From a virus, in the IMG/VR virus record IMGVR_UViG_3300009425_000053, positions 1 through 33,097 of that record: a stretch of 33,097 nt of DNA. One strand, 5' to 3'. The position numbers and the translations under genes were made by a program. Of this stretch, positions 6,302 through 33,097 are shown in pieces. Positions within the stretch are counted from its first letter, which is position 1, and every line of letters begins with the position of its first letter. A model generated the notes under the pieces. It saw nothing but the letters and a program-made list of their open reading frames with translations, was not told the DNA's origin and did no database searches.

Positions 6302-7456
6302 TTAATTTATTGCATATTTTCCGAAGTTTGGTTTTGATAAAATACTGTAAGTTCCATATCTTAAAGCGTCAATTAAATGGTTATGTTTATCAATCGGTAT
6401 ATTAATAGTTCTGCCTGATTTATCTTCTTTCCATTTATAGTTTCTAAATTCTTGAATAGCGTTTGAACTATCGTTAGTAATATGTATTTTATATCTTTTT
6501 AATAAATCTATTCCTGCATTCACAGAGTCTTTACCTTTTATGCTTGGTCTAATATTCCAACCCATTCTTCTCAATTCATCAACAAGTCTTACTTCTGCTG
6601 AATCCGCCCAAATCATTTCTCTATTTATATTTAACGTTTTTAAAAAATTATGTATATCTGTAGTGGTCATTAATGTTCTATATAAAAACTCCTTACAATA
6701 CAGATTATAGCCTTCAGTCCAAATACCGATTAAAGTTGTAGGATCGTTAGTGTATCCAAAATCCATACCGTAAGATAAAAAGTTTGCGTTTTCAGGAATT
6801 GTATTAGTTTCAATATATCTAAAAATGGTTGCTTTCGTTACTCCTTTTATTCCTAGTCCGTAGATTTGCCAATATTGTTCGTCTGTGTCTCTTAGTCTTT
6901 CAATCTCTTCTTTGATCGTATCTTCTAAAAAAGGGTTGTCTAAATAATTAGTTTGAAAAAAATCGGCATCATTTCTTGGTATTACTTTATCATATATCCA
7001 ATGATATTCGTCTGAAGGGTTGTAGTCAATTATTATTTTTTCTTGCGTTCTAAATATTAACTGTTGCCAATCTTCCCAATACAATTCGTTTGCTTCATTT
7101 ATAAATAACAAATCTCTTTTTCTTCCTCTTACTTTTTGAGGTTGATCCAAGCTTATAAATTCAATTAAATTTCCATACAATTGATATTCGCTTGAGGACT
7201 TATTATGAGCCTCCTCTGCATACATTTTATGCTTTTTTAGAATATCTATAAAGTCTCTCATCACTGAGGCTCTAAGACTAGGAAAGGTCTTTCTACATAT
7301 TGTTATAGTTTTATTTCTTTTATTAGTACAATAACTAAATATGATCCAAAGCAAAATATTATAAGTTTTACCTGATCTTGTTCCGCCCTGTTCAATAATA
7401 ATTTTCTTTTTACTATCTACTAAATGCCCGTAAACATCATTAGTCTTTATTCTCAT
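6302..7456 (-). CDS. terL: Terminase large subunit (PBSX-type), 384 aa
   Basis: The ATPase and nuclease motor that packages DNA into the prohead. Numbered from ATG 7456: Walker A GGTRSGKT at residues 24-31, Walker B DLLFINEAN at 115-123 with the catalytic Glu at 121. The C-terminal RNase H-like nuclease carries DFGYTNDP (first Asp about 232), WADSAE (Asp 285) and a final Asp in HNHLIDALRYG (about 363). The length is normal for PBSX-type enzymes. An upstream TTG (7471) would add five residues, but I prefer the ATG. It overlaps the small subunit gene by 17 nt. Smallest-to-largest order and overlap are typical of a packaging operon, here directly downstream of the DNA modification genes. Confidence 0.95.
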   Translation of the reverse strand: MRIKTNDVYGHLVDSKKKIIIEQGGTRSGKTYNILLWIIFSYCTNKRNKTITICRKTFPSLRASVMRDFIDILKKHKMYAEEAHNKSSSEYQLYGNLIEFISLDQPQKVRGRKRDLLFINEANELYWEDWQQLIFRTQEKIIIDYNPSDEYHWIYDKVIPRNDADFFQTNYLDNPFLEDTIKEEIERLRDTDEQYWQIYGLGIKGVTKATIFRYIETNTIPENANFLSYGMDFGYTNDPTTLIGIWTEGYNLYCKEFLYRTLMTTTDIHNFLKTLNINREMIWADSAEVRLVDELRRMGWNIRPSIKGKDSVNAGIDLLKRYKIHITNDSSNAIQEFRNYKWKEDKSGRTINIPIDKHNHLIDALRYGTYSILSKPNFGKYAIN

Positions 7457-7796
7457 TCCTGATAATCTCAACTGTTACATTAGTTGGCAATCCTTCTGCT
7501 CCTGTTATTTCTTGTCTTTCCACGTATCCTCTTTTTTTACCTTTTGTTTTTAATGCAAAAATAATAGAAGCCGTACATCCTGTATTTATTTTATCTACTA
7601 ATTTACTCTCTGCAAAATCAATGAATATATTTTCAGGTTCAATACAATCTAAAGTATTTTTAAAATCTTTATCGTTTTTTTTCCAGTTATAATATGTTTG
7701 TCTTGATATGTTTACCGCTCTACAACTTCGAGTAACGTTCCCGAAACTCTTTTCGTAAGTTTCAATAAAAGCCTTTTTTGTTAATTTTGTGTCCAT
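7440..7796 (-). CDS. terS: Terminase small subunit (118 aa)
   Basis: A 118-residue protein with an N-terminal helix-turn-helix: FGNVTRSCRAVNISRQTYYNWKK splits into a helix around 18-26 and a recognition helix at about 29-39 of the phage terminase small-subunit type. The C-terminal part (residues 60-118, including SIIFALKTKGKKRGY at about 77-91) matches oligomerisation regions of this family. It recognises the packaging start site and recruits the large subunit. The gene ends inside terL (17-nt overlap) and follows the P-loop kinase gene after 6 nt, so packaging and DNA modification genes are probably cotranscribed. Confidence 0.85.
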   Translation of the reverse strand: MDTKLTKKAFIETYEKSFGNVTRSCRAVNISRQTYYNWKKNDKDFKNTLDCIEPENIFIDFAESKLVDKINTGCTASIIFALKTKGKKRGYVERQEITGAEGLPTNVTVEIIRNENKD

Positions 7797-7802
7797 TTTT
7801 GT

Positions 7803-8309
7803 CTATTTTTGTATCAAATTAATGATCTCTAATTTAAGCCGTTTGTATTCTTCATCCGTGTTATTGTTATATAATATAACGTTGTTCTTTTCTATTATGT
7901 TTACAATCTTTGTTTTCTTAGCCTTTTTAAACACTTCTGTTTGATTATCTGATCTTAATATGTGTCTACCTTCCAAAGTTTTATTATCGGCTTTTAAAAC
8001 AACTATTTTACATTTATATTTATTAAACAGACTTTGATTGAATAATCTGTCTCCTTCAAAGATAACCAACGAATTTTTAACTTTATCTAAAAATTTAAAA
8101 AAATCAGGTTGAACAGCCATTGAAAGTTTGTCTGTGCCTGAGAAGATTGAATTATCATAAATGCCTATAAAATATATATTATTTTTTTTATTGTATAGTC
8201 CTCTAACTAATTTAAACTTAAAAGTGCTTAAAGGTTTATAGTTTTTAATTATATCTTTTAATAGAGTTGTTTTTCCTGAAGCGGGTTCTCCTCCTATTGC
8301 TATAATCAT
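7803..8309 (-). CDS. P-loop nucleoside/DNA-base kinase, probable 5-hydroxymethyl-dU DNA kinase catalytic subunit (168 aa)
   Basis: Walker A GGEPASGKTT lies at residues 6-15. A Walker-B-like strand LVIFEGDRLF (81-90) carries E85, D87 and R88, and a conserved-looking segment FSGTDKLSM lies at 56-64. Arginines at 115 and 119 could form the lid. The pattern is that of small P-loop kinases near base-hypermodification genes, where experimentally studied relatives phosphorylate the hydroxymethyl group of 5-hydroxymethyl-dU in DNA. The gene is 1 nt downstream of the helical aGPT-Pplase2-type gene and just upstream of terS. Those two domains are, as I recall, part of one kinase in other phages, so this may be a split enzyme. 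The kinase fold is clear; the substrate is inferred from context. Confidence 0.75.
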   Translation of the reverse strand: MIIAIGGEPASGKTTLLKDIIKNYKPLSTFKFKLVRGLYNKKNNIYFIGIYDNSIFSGTDKLSMAVQPDFFKFLDKVKNSLVIFEGDRLFNQSLFNKYKCKIVVLKADNKTLEGRHILRSDNQTEVFKKAKKTKIVNIIEKNNVILYNNNTDEEYKRLKLEIINLIQK

Positions 8310-8310
8310 T

Positions 8311-9036
8311 TTACAATATACATTCTTTAGCTCTATTATTTAAATGAATTAGATCTTGACCGGGTTTATACTTATTATGAACGTGGGAATGATACTTGCA
8401 AAGTAAAGTTTCCAACTCGTTTAATCTTAAACCTTTTCCGTTGTTATGAGGAGAGTCTATGTTTTTTAAGTCTTTTAAAATAGAATAAGCGTTTTTTAAT
8501 AATTTATTATAGATATTCGTATCTGTAAGTATTTTTAAATTTTCCGGCATATCGTTAACTAAAAGAAGTCCTTTTAAAGGAAATGTATATGCTTTTCTGA
8601 AATCTAAAGATTCAAAATCTACATCTACTCCGTAACAACAATCAATCAAATCCATAAATTTCCAAGCCGCCCAAGGTCCAAATCCTTTTATTGTTTTAAT
8701 TCTATTGAATATTTTGTTACCGTTTTCTAAAAAAAACTTCTCTACGTTAACTCCCATAAAAGCTCTTTGTATATTATTTAGATATTCTTTTGCGTTGTGT
8801 TTACTTTTTCGTCTTTCGTTTCCGAACTTGACTTGGTCGATTGGTTTCATCTTAGAAATAACTTGTAACTCTGAGTGACTGTCGTAGATAACTAATTTAT
8901 GTAGTATCCAGTTAAATATTTGTTTTTTATTAAAACCCAGTTCTTTGCTTTTTTCTCTTAAAAATATGTAATCCGGATCTATGTCACCCGTTAAAAGTAG
9001 CTCTTTAGAAAAATCATAAAAATTATATTTATTCAT
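8311..9036 (-). CDS. aGPT-Pplase2 / HMUDK helical-domain protein for DNA base hypermodification (241 aa)
   Basis: A 241-residue, largely helical protein. Its key segment is KTIKGFGPWAAWKFMDLID (114-132), a helix-hairpin-helix-like GFGPW motif, followed by FESLDFRKAYTFPLKG (141-156) and a C-terminal LNELETLLCKYHSHVHNK (205-222). I recognise this set as the family first predicted to be alpha-glutamyl/putrescinyl-thymine pyrophosphorylase clade 2 and later linked to the helical part of 5-hmdU DNA kinases. It overlaps the TET/JBP gene by 8 nt and is followed after 1 nt by the P-loop kinase. The family is associated with hypermodified thymine in phage DNA. The exact reaction here is not readable from sequence. 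Confidence 0.75.
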   Translation of the reverse strand: MNKYNFYDFSKELLLTGDIDPDYIFLREKSKELGFNKKQIFNWILHKLVIYDSHSELQVISKMKPIDQVKFGNERRKSKHNAKEYLNNIQRAFMGVNVEKFFLENGNKIFNRIKTIKGFGPWAAWKFMDLIDCCYGVDVDFESLDFRKAYTFPLKGLLLVNDMPENLKILTDTNIYNKLLKNAYSILKDLKNIDSPHNNGKGLRLNELETLLCKYHSHVHNKYKPGQDLIHLNNRAKECIL

Positions 9037-9940
9037 TAAATTTGTCTCCGGGTTTTCTTCTCTTTACTTTTTCGTTTTCTTCTTTAGCAGACCCGCAGTT
9101 GATCATATTTTTTCTGTAGTACATAACTAAACTGATTCTTTTAGCGTCTTTGTCTATTAATTCAATAGGAGTGTTTCCGTGCCATTGATGAACGTCTACT
9201 AGTAAAAGATCAGAAACTTGTAAATCAAAAGCAACTCCCCATTTTGGAACAACAAAATATCCACCAACATACCTTCCTTTTCTAAGAGCAACTAAATTTC
9301 CAAAACCTTTCTCGAAGTCTCCAGAGTCAGTATGAACAGCGGTTTGCCAATTTTTATTTACTGTTACAGTAGTAAAAGCAGTATTAGTAATAACAAAATC
9401 TTGCGCTGTTTTATCAGCTTCGGTTCTTTGAAGTTTATATTCTTGAGGCATTAATTTTGAATAAGCTTTATCTACAAATTTAATTATCGGATATGCTTTT
9501 TTAAATTTACTAAATTCCTTTTCATTAAAAGAAGTTTGTCTACAATAGGGAGTTCTAGGACTTTTATCAAAATAACCTATAATACCGCTGTTTACTTCCG
9601 TTAAAAGTTTTCTGTTACTGGATTGCGTTCCGTCTTTTTTAATCGGATTTTTTCCAAAAGTTCCGTTTTCTTTTTCGCCTGAGCTTATTGCTCTATTGTT
9701 AGAATGTCTAGAAGCTCCTTTTAAATTTTCATAAGCGTCTCTACAAATATTACTAGGAATAACTTTTTTTCTAAATTTAGCTATTGTTTTTCCTGTCTCT
9801 TTACAATATACGTCTGCGTCATAAGTCACTAAAGTATTATAATCTTTTTCACTTAATAAAGCGCCTTTTAATTTGTTGACTTTTTCGTCATTTAAAACAG
9901 GCTTTAATTTTATTATCTCAATTGAGCTTTTCATATTCAT
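9029..9940 (-). CDS. TET/JBP-family 2-oxoglutarate/Fe(II) dioxygenase (303 aa), probable thymine hydroxylase
   Basis: The C-terminal half is a double-stranded beta-helix oxygenase. TTVTVNKNWQTAVHTDSGDF (190-209) holds the metal-binding H203-x-D205. The distal His lies in DVHQWHGNTP (H254 preferred), and RISLVMYYR (268-276) supplies the 2-oxoglutarate-binding Arg. This arrangement is typical of TET/JBP enzymes, which hydroxylate the methyl group of thymine or 5-methylcytosine in DNA. The N-terminal 120 residues are polar and basic (for example the Asn/Ser-rich region around 75-110), possibly a DNA-binding part. ATG 9940 overlaps the ParB-like gene by 23 nt; a second ATG at 9934 would shorten it by two residues. 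With kinase-type neighbours and no methyltransferase in the genome, thymine is the likelier substrate. Confidence 0.85.
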   Translation of the reverse strand: MNMKSSIEIIKLKPVLNDEKVNKLKGALLSEKDYNTLVTYDADVYCKETGKTIAKFRKKVIPSNICRDAYENLKGASRHSNNRAISSGEKENGTFGKNPIKKDGTQSSNRKLLTEVNSGIIGYFDKSPRTPYCRQTSFNEKEFSKFKKAYPIIKFVDKAYSKLMPQEYKLQRTEADKTAQDFVITNTAFTTVTVNKNWQTAVHTDSGDFEKGFGNLVALRKGRYVGGYFVVPKWGVAFDLQVSDLLLVDVHQWHGNTPIELIDKDAKRISLVMYYRKNMINCGSAKEENEKVKRRKPGDKFNE

Positions 9941-10502
9941 TTTTAATTACTTGAAAAACAGTATCTGTTGCGTTATCAGCTCCAAGTTTTTTTCTAAGAG
10001 CTAACTCCATTTTTTTAAATTCAGGCTCTGTATCAACATTTAAATACAACTGAATCATTCTAGTATGAGAAGGTTCTAGCCCTTCATCAGGAAAACTATA
10101 CTCTCCGGTGTCTTCTATTTCGGATTCAATTTCTTCGGCGTCTTCCCATTTCGGAATATCCAAACCCCAATCTTTTAATTTATCCGTGTCCCATTGATTT
10201 GCTAAAACATCCCAATCCCACTCCCCAAAATTTGAATTGTCTTTTATTATAAATTCTTGTTTTTGTTTCTCAGTCCAACCTTTTGCTATTAATATATCCA
10301 CCTCTTTTAATCCTGCTTGAGCACAAGCTCTTAATCTCATATTGCCTCCAAGAACTACCATATCTTCGTCAACTACTATCGGTCTTTTTTCTAGCATTTC
10401 AGGAAAACTTTTAATAGAGTCTAGTAATTTTTTATATTTATAGTCCTTTATTACTCTAGGGTTTTCAAGATTTGGTTTAATTTTATCTATTTCTATTTTC
10501 AT
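9918..10502 (-). CDS. ParB-like domain protein (194 aa)
   Basis: The N-terminal ParB/sulfiredoxin-like fold is marked by LENPRVIKD (12-20) and VVLGGNMRLRAC (49-60). The GG-x-x-R signature is the CTP/ATP-binding motif of ParB-type domains. A polar second part contains GEWDWDVLANQWD (about 93-105), and an acidic stretch around 120-140 precedes a helical C-terminus. Phage ParB-like proteins often sit next to DNA methylases or modification enzymes and may guide them or act as nucleases. Here the gene overlaps the TET/JBP gene by 23 nt and the HNH gene by 4 nt (ATGA). It is not a plasmid partition protein by context, as no ParA is present. Confidence 0.75.
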   Translation of the reverse strand: MKIEIDKIKPNLENPRVIKDYKYKKLLDSIKSFPEMLEKRPIVVDEDMVVLGGNMRLRACAQAGLKEVDILIAKGWTEKQKQEFIIKDNSNFGEWDWDVLANQWDTDKLKDWGLDIPKWEDAEEIESEIEDTGEYSFPDEGLEPSHTRMIQLYLNVDTEPEFKKMELALRKKLGADNATDTVFQVIKNEYEKLN

Positions 10503-10930
10503 AATATGTCTAATTGATTAATATTGGTATATCTAGCTAATTGATTTTGAGAATTTGTTACCCACCTTAAATTTAAATAATGGTTGTTTATTTTGTTCCC
10601 GTCTATATGATCTACAAAATTATATGTTTTTTTATCAAAACACTCAACAAAAGTGCAAGCAACTAATCGGTGCAAAGAAAATCTTGTATTGTAATTTTGG
10701 TTAAAAATCTTTATGTAAGCGTATATGTACGGGTCATAATCTCGTTTTGTTTGAGTCAATATTTTATCTGAGAGTTTACTATATATTTGCCCTCTTCTAT
10801 TTATAAGATAATTTAAAAAAACTACCGGAACATTTGGGACTAGATTTTTGTTTTGACTACGGACGCTCCAATATTTTATTGGGCGAAATTCAGACAATTT
10901 ATCTTCCTCCCAAAACGTTAATTGTTTCAT
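10499..10930 (-). CDS. HNH endonuclease, homing-type (143 aa)
   Basis: A basic 143-residue protein. YLINRRGQIYS (41-51) resembles the NUMOD4-type module of homing endonucleases. The HNH core is SLHRLVACTF (85-94, with H87) and VDHIDGNKINNHYLNLRWVT (106-125), ending in NSQNQ. The pattern matches free-standing phage homing or nicking endonucleases. It is bracketed by 4-nt overlaps on both sides, so it is fully knitted into the operon, which argues for stable residence over a recent insertion. It could instead be a useful nuclease in replication, packaging or host-DNA attack. Confidence 0.85.
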   Translation of the reverse strand: MKQLTFWEEDKLSEFRPIKYWSVRSQNKNLVPNVPVVFLNYLINRRGQIYSKLSDKILTQTKRDYDPYIYAYIKIFNQNYNTRFSLHRLVACTFVECFDKKTYNFVDHIDGNKINNHYLNLRWVTNSQNQLARYTNINQLDIL

Positions 10931-11337
10931 TCTTTAATCATATAAGTTAAAGTTTCAGCTACTTCAACTCCTGAGTTATCTATCAATGATTTTGCAATTA
11001 ATTTTCTTGCTTTTTCAGATTGTGATTCACTTACAAGTTTTGTAAAATAAAATTCCAAGTTTTTATTATACTTACAATACATTTCATAATTATTAAATGC
11101 GTGTAAAGCAGTTGCGTGATCATAATCTTTTCCGTTAATTATAAAGAATTGTTTTATATTATTATAAGTCATATTTTCTACTGACCTTAAAATATAAACT
11201 ACTAGAGATCTGAGTTCTATTACTTCCTTTTTTCTTGTATTTTCAAAAACATCTATTCCGCTTATAATTTTTAATGTTCTTGCTATTTGCTGTGCTGAAT
11301 ATATATTGTTATTTGAGTTGCTGTATCTTATTCTCAT
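10927..11337 (-). CDS. DnaA domain IV-like DNA-binding protein (136 aa)
   Basis: Residues 35-85 look like the C-terminal duplex-DNA-binding domain of the initiator DnaA. A helix at 37-52 (EVIELRSLVVYILRSV) is followed by the turn and basic signature GKDYDHATALHA (69-80), comparable to the G-x-R-D-H-T-T-V-x-x-A signature. The AAA+ ATPase domain is absent, so the protein could bind DnaA-box-like sites but not load helicase by itself. Similar stand-alone domains occur in phages and are thought to act at the phage origin or regulate host initiation. It overlaps the 75-aa gene by 29 nt. The family is a good match; the role is inferred. Confidence 0.7.
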   Translation of the reverse strand: MRIRYSNSNNNIYSAQQIARTLKIISGIDVFENTRKKEVIELRSLVVYILRSVENMTYNNIKQFFIINGKDYDHATALHAFNNYEMYCKYNKNLEFYFTKLVSESQSEKARKLIAKSLIDNSGVEVAETLTYMIKE

Positions 11338-30707: not shown

Positions 30708-33097
30708 TTAATCGTTTTTAGTTTTGTAAGTAACTCTATTAGTAATATATCCATTTACTATTTGAACGCTAACGCCTCTCGCCATTCCTGAGTTAGCAGA
30801 ATCAACTCTAATTCCTACGTAAGGTGTAAAGTCAGGAACATACAATCCGTCTACTTCGAAAATACTACCAGCAAAACTAGAATAAAAACCATCCGCAAGT
30901 AAAGCGTTTGAATCACGCGTTGACGCGTAAAGTGAAATATTAGTTTTTCCTAAAGGATGAATATTTTTATCATCTTCTGCATATCTGTTTTCATAAGTCA
31001 TTATCGGTATATAAGTTGCGCCAGTATCTCCAACGTTATAAGATTTTGCTGCATTTTTAGCAATTTGAACATCAGTTGCGTGGTAAAACACATATGAAGA
31101 ACTTCCCAAAGCTCCGTCTAAGCCAAAAAACGGATAACTTGAACCAACACTAGTATTAAATGTAGCCGCGTTTCCTTCTACTATGTAAGGAACTATTTTG
31201 GAATAAAAATTCCATTCGCCGAATAATATTCCTTTGTAATCTTTAAGCTCTCCAGCCGCATTCATTATTCTAATAGTCCTAATGTTTCCATCCCATTTTG
31301 TTGACGCAGGTATTGTATATGACTGCACGTTGGTGGTTTGGCTATAAACTATTGACGCTTCAGCGGTTGCAGTAAAAATATCACTAATAACATCAGCAGT
31401 TTTAAAATTAGTTGTTGTATTTGTTCTTGCAAAAAATCTCCAATATTTTACATCTCCTTGCGAGAGACCGTTTAATTTAAATAAATATTTTTTTACATTA
31501 GTTGAACTTTTTGGACTAGAAGGCGTGTATTTTACATTCGTAACTGCGCCCGAAGCAATAAGAGTATCTAAATTAGTTCCTATTAAAGCTGCATTTGTAT
31601 TAGCGTACAAGAAACCGTAACTCTCAAGATTCCCGACTTCACAAATTTTTCCTAGCTGAGTAATATTATGAGAAAAAATAACACCTGAATTAGATTGAGT
31701 TTCTTGAACGGGTTGAGATAATATAGCCGAAGTGACTTCGCATTCCTCGTTATTTATAGGAACAGGAGTATTGCCCGGAATCGTTGACGGTATTTTTATT
31801 ATTGGATTGTCTAGAACTTCTTCATATTGAATACCCGCATCCGCAGTAACAACAGTACTATCAGCGGTTGTTCCTGTAGTTTTTACGTCTAGATCTATTG
31901 TTGATATAGCTTCTAATAAATTTGCTATTTCTTTTCTTTCGTCAAATACGTTTATTAATTCTAATTGAGATTTAAGATTTTCAAAATTAGTAGTGATTTT
32001 ATTTATTTTATATACTTTGTCTGATATAATTAACCTGTCAAATAATTGGAGTTTTGTAATAATTGCTAATGGAATAAAAGCGTCTAACTTTGTTAATCGT
32101 CTTTCTACTTTGAAAACGTCTTGAATATAAGTCTTATAATAATCATTAAATAAAGTATCATTAAAAGGTCTCAAACTATATTCATTAATTTCTGCTGAAA
32201 AGTTTAATGTTTTAGAGGCGTCTAATTTTATTGAATTGCTTGGAATATAATATGTCGTTAACTCTTCGTGTCCTGAAGCTCCAATAAAACTAATTGAAGT
32301 GGGGGTTTGAAATCCTGTAGTAACATTAGTTGCTTTAATCGGATAAAATAATAAAGGCTTTCCAACTGTTGGCTTTTCGTCTTTATTAGCTGCCCATCCC
32401 CATTGTATACTTGTAGAGCTTGAGTCGTATTGATTAACAAGTTTCTCAAATTTAAAATGCTCAAACGGAACTTTAATTTCAAACTTTTTACCGTCAAATT
32501 TAGAATCTTTGTATTTTATTCCTCCCCAAGGAACTCCAAACCTTTCTTCGTGATCATCTGCAAAAAAGTTTTTAGTGCCTTCGTATTTTAATTCTATTTG
32601 ATTAAAAGGTATCGTTGTATTTATTTCGCTTTTTGTAGTATCAATATGTTTTCCAATATCATAATATGAAACAGGTTTTAAAGTAGAGCCTGCATAAAAA
32701 GAGTCTAAAGTTCGTATTTGAGTAATTCCATCGTCATCAATAAAAGCTGTCAAATTAAACATTTTAAATATTCCAGTCAAAAAATCCAATATTTTCATAT
32801 CAGGTAAATTGTCTTTTATTGAAAACTTTTCTGATGAAAAAGTGCTTCCGGTAGCTTTCCAAGTCAATATTGCGTCTCTTCCTGAGTATAATGCCGTCAC
32901 TTTTAATTCAGCAGTATAAGTTGCAGCCGCTACTCCTCCAACTTCAATAGTATGAGATCCGGGTTGTAAATTTAATCCAATAATACTAGAAGATCCGGTC
33001 AAGTCGTCTTCTTGATAAATAACTTCGCCCTCTCTTCGTACTATTACGTTGTATTTTGAGTTTCCGGAACTGCTGAAACTACCGTCTAAAAATTTAG
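30708..33097 (-). CDS. Tail-tip/minor tail protein, C-terminal part (5' end outside or at window start)
   Basis: The frame is open up to base 33097 (first full codons read KFLDGSF), with no credible start nearby except a TTG at 33002 inside the frame, so it is 5'-truncated here. It includes SIKDNLPDMKILDFLTGIFK (about 80 residues in), followed by MFNLTAF, a motif I associate with the same large tail proteins that carry the FSVPASKNNN-type motif at the left edge. The rest is beta-rich (764 residues after the TTG), ending in NGYITNRVTYKTKND. If joined through the 8-bp overlap it forms one 1,138-residue tail-tip protein. It precedes the tape measure. Confidence 0.75.
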   Translation of the reverse strand, partial: KFLDGSFSSSGNSKYNVIVRREGEVIYQEDDLTGSSSIIGLNLQPGSHTIEVGGVAAATYTAELKVTALYSGRDAILTWKATGSTFSSEKFSIKDNLPDMKILDFLTGIFKMFNLTAFIDDDGITQIRTLDSFYAGSTLKPVSYYDIGKHIDTTKSEINTTIPFNQIELKYEGTKNFFADDHEERFGVPWGGIKYKDSKFDGKKFEIKVPFEHFKFEKLVNQYDSSSTSIQWGWAANKDEKPTVGKPLLFYPIKATNVTTGFQTPTSISFIGASGHEELTTYYIPSNSIKLDASKTLNFSAEINEYSLRPFNDTLFNDYYKTYIQDVFKVERRLTKLDAFIPLAIITKLQLFDRLIISDKVYKINKITTNFENLKSQLELINVFDERKEIANLLEAISTIDLDVKTTGTTADSTVVTADAGIQYEEVLDNPIIKIPSTIPGNTPVPINNEECEVTSAILSQPVQETQSNSGVIFSHNITQLGKICEVGNLESYGFLYANTNAALIGTNLDTLIASGAVTNVKYTPSSPKSSTNVKKYLFKLNGLSQGDVKYWRFFARTNTTTNFKTADVISDIFTATAEASIVYSQTTNVQSYTIPASTKWDGNIRTIRIMNAAGELKDYKGILFGEWNFYSKIVPYIVEGNAATFNTSVGSSYPFFGLDGALGSSSYVFYHATDVQIAKNAAKSYNVGDTGATYIPIMTYENRYAEDDKNIHPLGKTNISLYASTRDSNALLADGFYSSFAGSIFEVDGLYVPDFTPYVGIRVDSANSGMARGVSVQIVNGYITNRVTYKTKND
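33090..33097. repeat. 8-bp direct repeat shared by both window ends (copy 2)
   Basis: The last eight bases, aaatttag, repeat the first eight of the window. See copy 1 at 1-8 for the circular-closure interpretation. Confidence 0.65.

Follow-up and report, generated by a model that had tools for sequence, protein, structure and literature searches.

A TET/JBP oxygenase that probably begins thymine hypermodification in a phage, in an operon with a ParB-like protein, an amino acid:DNA transferase and a P-loop kinase

The window analyzed here is the whole 33,097-base stretch of the viral record. On its minus strand, a cassette of four genes lies next to the terminase genes:

6302-7471, minus strand: large terminase, a flank outside the pathway (Pfam Terminase_3C, 1.6e-23; Terminase_3, 2.3e-21)
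7440-7796, minus strand: small-terminase-like HTH gene after the cassette, a flank outside the pathway (GP3_package and HTH_Tnp_1_2, below Pfam cut-off)
7803-8309, minus strand: P-loop kinase, 168 aa, predicted 5hmU DNA kinase (motifs, hhalign, model)
8311-9036, minus strand: amino acid:DNA transferase (ADDT), 241 aa, predicted to transfer glycine (amino acid) onto phosphorylated 5hmU (PF18724, fold, phmmer)
9029-9940, minus strand: TET/JBP 2OG-Fe(II) oxygenase, 303 aa (PF12851, invariant catalytic residues)
9918-10502, minus strand: ParB-like gene, 194 aa, heading the cassette (PHROG; Pfam below cut-off)

The ParB-like, TET, transferase and kinase genes form one operon in which neighbors overlap or abut, with spacings of -23 bases (ParB-TET), -8 bases (TET-transferase) and 1 base (transferase-kinase). 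The ParB-like protein scored 21.2 bits against Pfam ParB_N, under the cut-off of 26.3, and was matched in PHROG by phrog_17622 (1.9e-24) and by phrog_620, "ParB-like partition protein" (3.3e-24). A DnaA C-terminal-like HTH protein is encoded two genes upstream of it, at 10927-11337 (PF08299, 27.2 bits, cut-off 31.5).

Residues 120-277 of the window TET matched PF12851 (Tet_JBP) with an E-value of 4.3e-29 and 101 bits (cut-off 34.9), and this above-cut-off profile, together with the HxD...H...R Fe/2OG core, places the protein in the TET/JBP family. The catalytic set listed in an earlier note on this DNA (H203, D205, H254, R268) was found at exactly those positions and does not vary across the 24 sequences aligned, which come from the window, contigs and phages (the window row starts at codon 2, and the alignment numbering is 202/204/253/267). 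The same note had singled out a basic N-terminal extension of about 120 residues. Its 119 residues are indeed basic (23 K+R, 14 D+E, pI 9.6) but not distinctive, the catalytic domain (pI 9.4) and the entire protein (pI 9.55) being comparably so. An attempt to read the substrate base from active-site residues was dropped because phmmer gave no useful solved relative and the 24-row TET profile touched TET2 only weakly, at the C-terminus (E 0.0088). A genome scan found TET at four distant loci, all of them in metagenome bins, and a search for closely similar DNA matched no named phage. The window TET also matches phrog_6059 (E 2.3e-12) and Mycobacterium phage Reprobate gp2 (L185:807-1670; hhalign 96.7%), both labelled queuine tRNA-ribosyltransferase, a label that looks wrong.

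The gene directly downstream of TET matched PF18724 at 39.2 bits (cut-off 26.2). Its AlphaFold model, built from a 25-row alignment (pLDDT 91.9), found 8z2n/8z2m as best Foldseek matches (E 1.2e-7), the next unrelated fold scoring 0.41; the PDB titles of these two entries name the 5-phosphomethyl-2'-deoxyuridine glycinyltransferase gp46/PUGT of phage PaMx11. The model superposed on the gp46/PUGT structure with a Z-score of 18.7 over 229 residues. DNA glycosylases share this fold, but they came next with Z-scores of 8.8 at most, and this identity was rejected. Sequence agreed with fold, as phmmer matched 25qc (2.9e-12) and 8z2m (2.2e-9). The PF18724 match and the 5-PmdU glycinyltransferase fold thus assign the protein to the ADDT family, and on sequence and model it is judged homologous to the solved 5-phosphomethyl-deoxyuridine glycinyltransferase. 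By analogy, glycine is the most likely donor, although only about 20% identity to PUGT means that the donor could be another amino acid.

The third enzyme is a P-loop kinase. A 15-row alignment contains 37 invariant positions, including the motifs GxPxxGK, GTDKLSMAVQ and FEGDRLF, and the model (pLDDT 93.2) has the fold of NMP kinases. By hhalign, the window kinase matched the Tonitrus kinase at 97.5%, the Reprobate kinase at 97.0% and the YuA gene that matches the Pfam 5-hmdU DNA kinase at 84.8%, against 1.8% for a DnaB-like P-loop protein used as control. The P-loop NMP-kinase fold and the homology to phage 5hmU kinases place it among the 5hmU DNA kinases, with a predicted substrate. Neither the Pfam 5hmU kinase nor the Ploopntkinase3 family matched it above cut-off, and none reached E 0.1; its L008 relative scored 12.8 bits against Ploopntkinase3 (cut-off 27). 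Against the PDB, the kinase profile matched 4jst and 4gp7, chains labelled Metallophosphoesterase that represent a polynucleotide kinase domain, but too weakly (E 0.013) for the match to be used. A plain ATPase is unlikely, given the NMP-kinase fold and the low score of the DnaB-like control. The phrog_800 label, terminase small subunit, was also rejected: the YuA gene so labelled matches the Pfam 5-hmdU DNA kinase, and a distinct small-terminase-like gene is present in the window. Similarly, kinase relatives in Cr30 (L062:3289-3834) and YuA (L063:12053-12616), labelled terminase small subunit in their records, look like DNA-modification kinases.

The earlier note had described the genome as apparently complete. 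The record lacks an end repeat of at least 15 bases, and positions 1-1035 and 30708-33097 are pieces of one large gene, both matching a single open frame in four related genomes (G002, G003, G005, G006). By our own arithmetic, about 0 to 350 bases are missing between the ends, and we take the record to be a near-complete genome cut inside this gene: nearly whole, then, but not entirely so. Such a gap is too short for a further enzyme, and therefore the enzyme absences are meaningful. Six-frame searches of the 33,097-base window gave no match to the N6/N4 methyltransferases (PF01555), to dUTPase (PF00692), to the C5-methyltransferases (PF00145), which characterize cytosine-type phage TET systems, or to the thymidylate-synthase family (PF00303), to which dUMP hydroxymethylase, the hallmark of M6/YuA-type phages, belongs. 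In control searches, 9 to 11 of 14 genomes were positive for each family. The same enzymes were absent among the 50 of 74 window ORFs scanned by Pfam, the other 24 comprising one ORF of 66 aa and others that are nested or lie on the opposite strand. The lack of a C5-methyltransferase, a dUMP hydroxymethylase and a dUTPase, claimed from a first reading of the sequence, is thus borne out for the window, and the possibility then raised that a closer look might reveal a methyltransferase was followed up with PF00145 and PF01555 without a match. No TAGT glycosyltransferase, which would stand beside TET in a base-J-like system, was matched in the window; one adjoins or lies close to TET in L003, L055 and L058. 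Across the 16 TET records, the thymidylate-synthase family was not found in any. At E 0.001, C5-methyltransferases were absent from the window and from 14 of the 16 records, the matches being above cut-off in G009 and below it in G006.

The association of these genes was followed in relatives through three sets of loci, seeded with TET, the transferase or the kinase; the sets overlap in many contigs and are not independent samples. Around TET, the kinase was present in 49 of 54 loci and ParB adjoined TET in 49 of 54. Three of the five kinase-less loci (L033, L036, L049) stop short of the place where the kinase is expected, and the other two (L055, L058) have a TET-associated glycosyltransferase. 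Every transferase-seeded locus contained TET and ParB (26/26) and most the kinase (23/26), with neither a thymidylate synthase nor a C5-methyltransferase in any of the 26. Among the 80 kinase-seeded loci, TET was found within 4.5 kb in 47 of the 48 that had at least 3.2 kb upstream, and in 17 of the 32 shorter ones. L135 matched the kinase and transferase, with TET not found, and mycobacteriophage Soto has a related kinase with no TET within the 3.6 kb examined. Other partners were also observed. In Pelagibacter phage HTVC112P (L002:7599-9195), an FkbM-family methyltransferase (PF05050, 9.7e-14) comes after ParB and TET in place of the transferase and kinase; it may O-methylate a hydroxymethyl base. 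In Synechococcus phage S-CBWM1 (L065:3702-6058), the gene after TET encodes a TAGT-like glycosyltransferase (46 bits), and a sugar nucleotidyltransferase is annotated nearby. This TET family occurs with several partner sets, and the statement that phage TETs are linked to 5mC is too simple as a blanket rule.

We propose, with high confidence, that TET catalyzes the opening step of a thymine-hypermodification pathway encoded by this phage operon (ParB-like, TET/JBP, ADDT, P-loop kinase), followed by the kinase and then the transferase. The computed results cover the gene families, their arrangement as an operon, their conservation and the match in fold, and from these we infer the reactions, the base, the glycine donor, the role of ParB and the protective function. 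In DNA already replicated, TET would hydroxylate selected thymines at the methyl group, giving 5hmU, and the kinase would phosphorylate the hydroxyl of 5hmU. According to PMC6449724, a 5hmdU DNA kinase phosphorylates 5hmdU in M6, ViI and phi W-14 before further modification, and PMC7653180 describes a kinase acting on SP8 DNA. In the last step, the transferase would replace the phosphate by an amino acid joined through its amino group, with glycine the most likely one, to give N-alpha-glycyl-thymidine. TET would stand in for the dUMP hydroxymethylase by which phages like YuA make 5hmU as a nucleotide; replication would therefore use ordinary dTTP, and only some thymines would need changing. 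The likely purpose would be to block host nucleases. The ParB-like neighbor may guide TET, as suggested earlier; what the loci show is a conserved gene neighborhood of the two. That thymine is the substrate, modified in DNA after replication, had been inferred in the earlier note; this is now strongly supported, since the adjoining genes encode a homolog of the 5-PmdU glycinyltransferase and a relative of 5hmU kinases, with no methyltransferase or dUMP hydroxymethylase in the window. The end product implied there, oxidized thymine alone, is probably just an intermediate, because the transferase and kinase genes, missed in that reading, lie directly downstream.

Cytosine was considered as the alternative base: TET could oxidize 5mC made by a host C5-methyltransferase, with the kinase and transferase building on 5hmC. 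C5-methyltransferases do accompany related gene sets. The Melnitz phages carry, in a row, a C5-methyltransferase, TET, a further gene and a relative of the window kinase; in L124 and L125 a C5-methyltransferase directly follows TET-ADDT-kinase; and the C5-methyltransferase-like gene of G009 lies away from its cassette. Because of these genomes, we consider that the TET-kinase pair is not bound to thymine alone, and thymine is the best reading for the window TET rather than a rule for all TET-kinase sets. For the window itself the cytosine route is improbable, as the C5-methyltransferase is missing here and in most of the TET records, and the title of 8z2n, a solved transferase of this family, refers to 5-phosphomethyl-deoxyuridine. 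Even less probable is that 5hmU made by TET with ParB is the final base and the adjoining genes do other jobs. TET alone would suffice for 5hmU and some distant relatives have TET without the transferase (L002, L003, L055), but the strict operon, with its overlapping or abutting genes, and the co-occurrence of TET with transferase and kinase argue against it.

The thymine pathway could also end differently, with an amino acid other than glycine or with an adduct trimmed by a host enzyme (e.g., to 5-aminomethyl-dU). This would be a sub-case of the proposed pathway, not exclusive of it, and we regard it as possible, though on the unlikely side. The low identity between the transferase and PUGT leaves room for it, as does the absence from the window of a flavin-type gene that is present in 19 of 26 transferase-seeded loci, whereas the nearest solved relatives favor glycine, one being a glycinyltransferase and the other a chain labelled amino acid:DNA transferase. 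Close relatives of the window transferase have this flavin-type gene at their loci, and it matches flavin-dependent lyases of solved structure (8z2o, 5.9e-6; 8z79, 2.1e-5). Since this lyase is absent, the window product may remain unprocessed N-alpha-glycyl-thymidine.

The genes between TET and kinase are also where related cassettes differ. Among the 54 TET loci, they are of three kinds, with 2 loci having other genes. The window type, transferase alone, was found in 2 loci, whose TET, transferase and kinase are all 100% identical to those of the window; a transferase with a flavin-type gene was found in 13; and a class-II glutamine amidotransferase with a second transferase clade was found in 37 (e.g., L008:2562-3173), a few of them cut off by contig ends and 29 of them with a GNAT acetyltransferase. 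The borders of the exchanged segment are clean. Compared with L011, the window matches across ParB, TET and the transferase, has no counterpart of the flavin gene, and matches again from the kinase. At the DNA level, L010 and L011 are 90% identical over ParB and TET and 96% identical from the kinase on, with nothing matching between, and L030 and L020 show the same pattern (93% and 96%, no match between). On a quick 65-row TET tree (full-length rows of the three kinds only, identical rows removed), the kinds require 8 changes where the minimum possible is 2, and the starred branches force at least 4 changes each for the amidotransferase and flavin kinds. In the relatives, ParB-TET and the kinase are constant, and the chemistry genes in between are cleanly exchanged. 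Repeated swaps of this sort would show DNA chemistry changing while oxidase and kinase persist, and this payload exchange is the more unusual aspect of the cassette. A fuller reading is put forward tentatively, as a possibility short of an even chance: that N-alpha-glycyl-thymidine is the final base, made by an all-in-DNA route at ParB-chosen sites with no modified nucleotide pool, and that relatives swap the payload (a glycine adduct, the product of a flavin lyase, or a glutamine-amidotransferase route that may include acetylation) on a fixed ParB-TET and kinase chassis by recombination at gene borders.

If the proposed pathway is true, thymine would be hypermodified without a modified nucleotide pool, an amino acid being written onto chosen thymines after replication, and site-specific thymine marks would be possible in viruses of bacteria. 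It would also supply enzymes with which T in DNA could be labelled, and would explain TET genes in methyltransferase-less phages.

Such systems were reportedly predicted by Iyer and colleagues in 2013; searches of open-licence literature brought up no laboratory experiment on a thymine route that starts with TET. In kinetoplastids, JBP1/2 hydroxylate thymine in DNA, which is then glucosylated to base J (see also PMC6449724). Thymine hydroxylation by TET/JBP would be common to that system and the window, with glucosylation there and phosphorylation and amino acid transfer here. Phage TETs of cytosine hypermodification, described with a C5-methyltransferase and glycosyltransferases (Burke 2021, as cited in PMC12730594), likewise act on DNA, but these partner enzymes are absent from the window. 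The thymidine hypermodification of PaMx11, YuA and M6 shares the ADDT and 5hmU DNA kinase families with the window. YuA has ADDT and kinase with no TET in the stretch examined, and its kinase is followed by a separate kinase helical-domain gene. There 5hmU would arise at the nucleotide level through a putative dUMP hydroxymethyltransferase, whereas the window TET would form it in DNA. The cassettes most like that of the window are those of actinophages. PMC9302106 (Gordonia phage CaiB) and PMC11955845 (Tonitrus) describe ParB / TET-JBP / pyrophosphorylase (aGPT-Pplase2) / adenylate-kinase cassettes, and the records of LittleMunchkin, also a Gordonia phage, and Reprobate contain a cassette of the same gene families. 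Gene families, order and position near the terminase are alike in all of them, and the window TET matched the Tonitrus and Reprobate TETs by hhalign at 97.1% and 96.7%, respectively. They differ in their distant sequences, actinobacterial hosts and extra genes, namely a flavin-type gene in Reprobate and, in Tonitrus and LittleMunchkin, a 293-aa gene of no clear family after the kinase. The same gene set has already been annotated in Gordonia and Rhodococcus phages, and the window cassette adds another.
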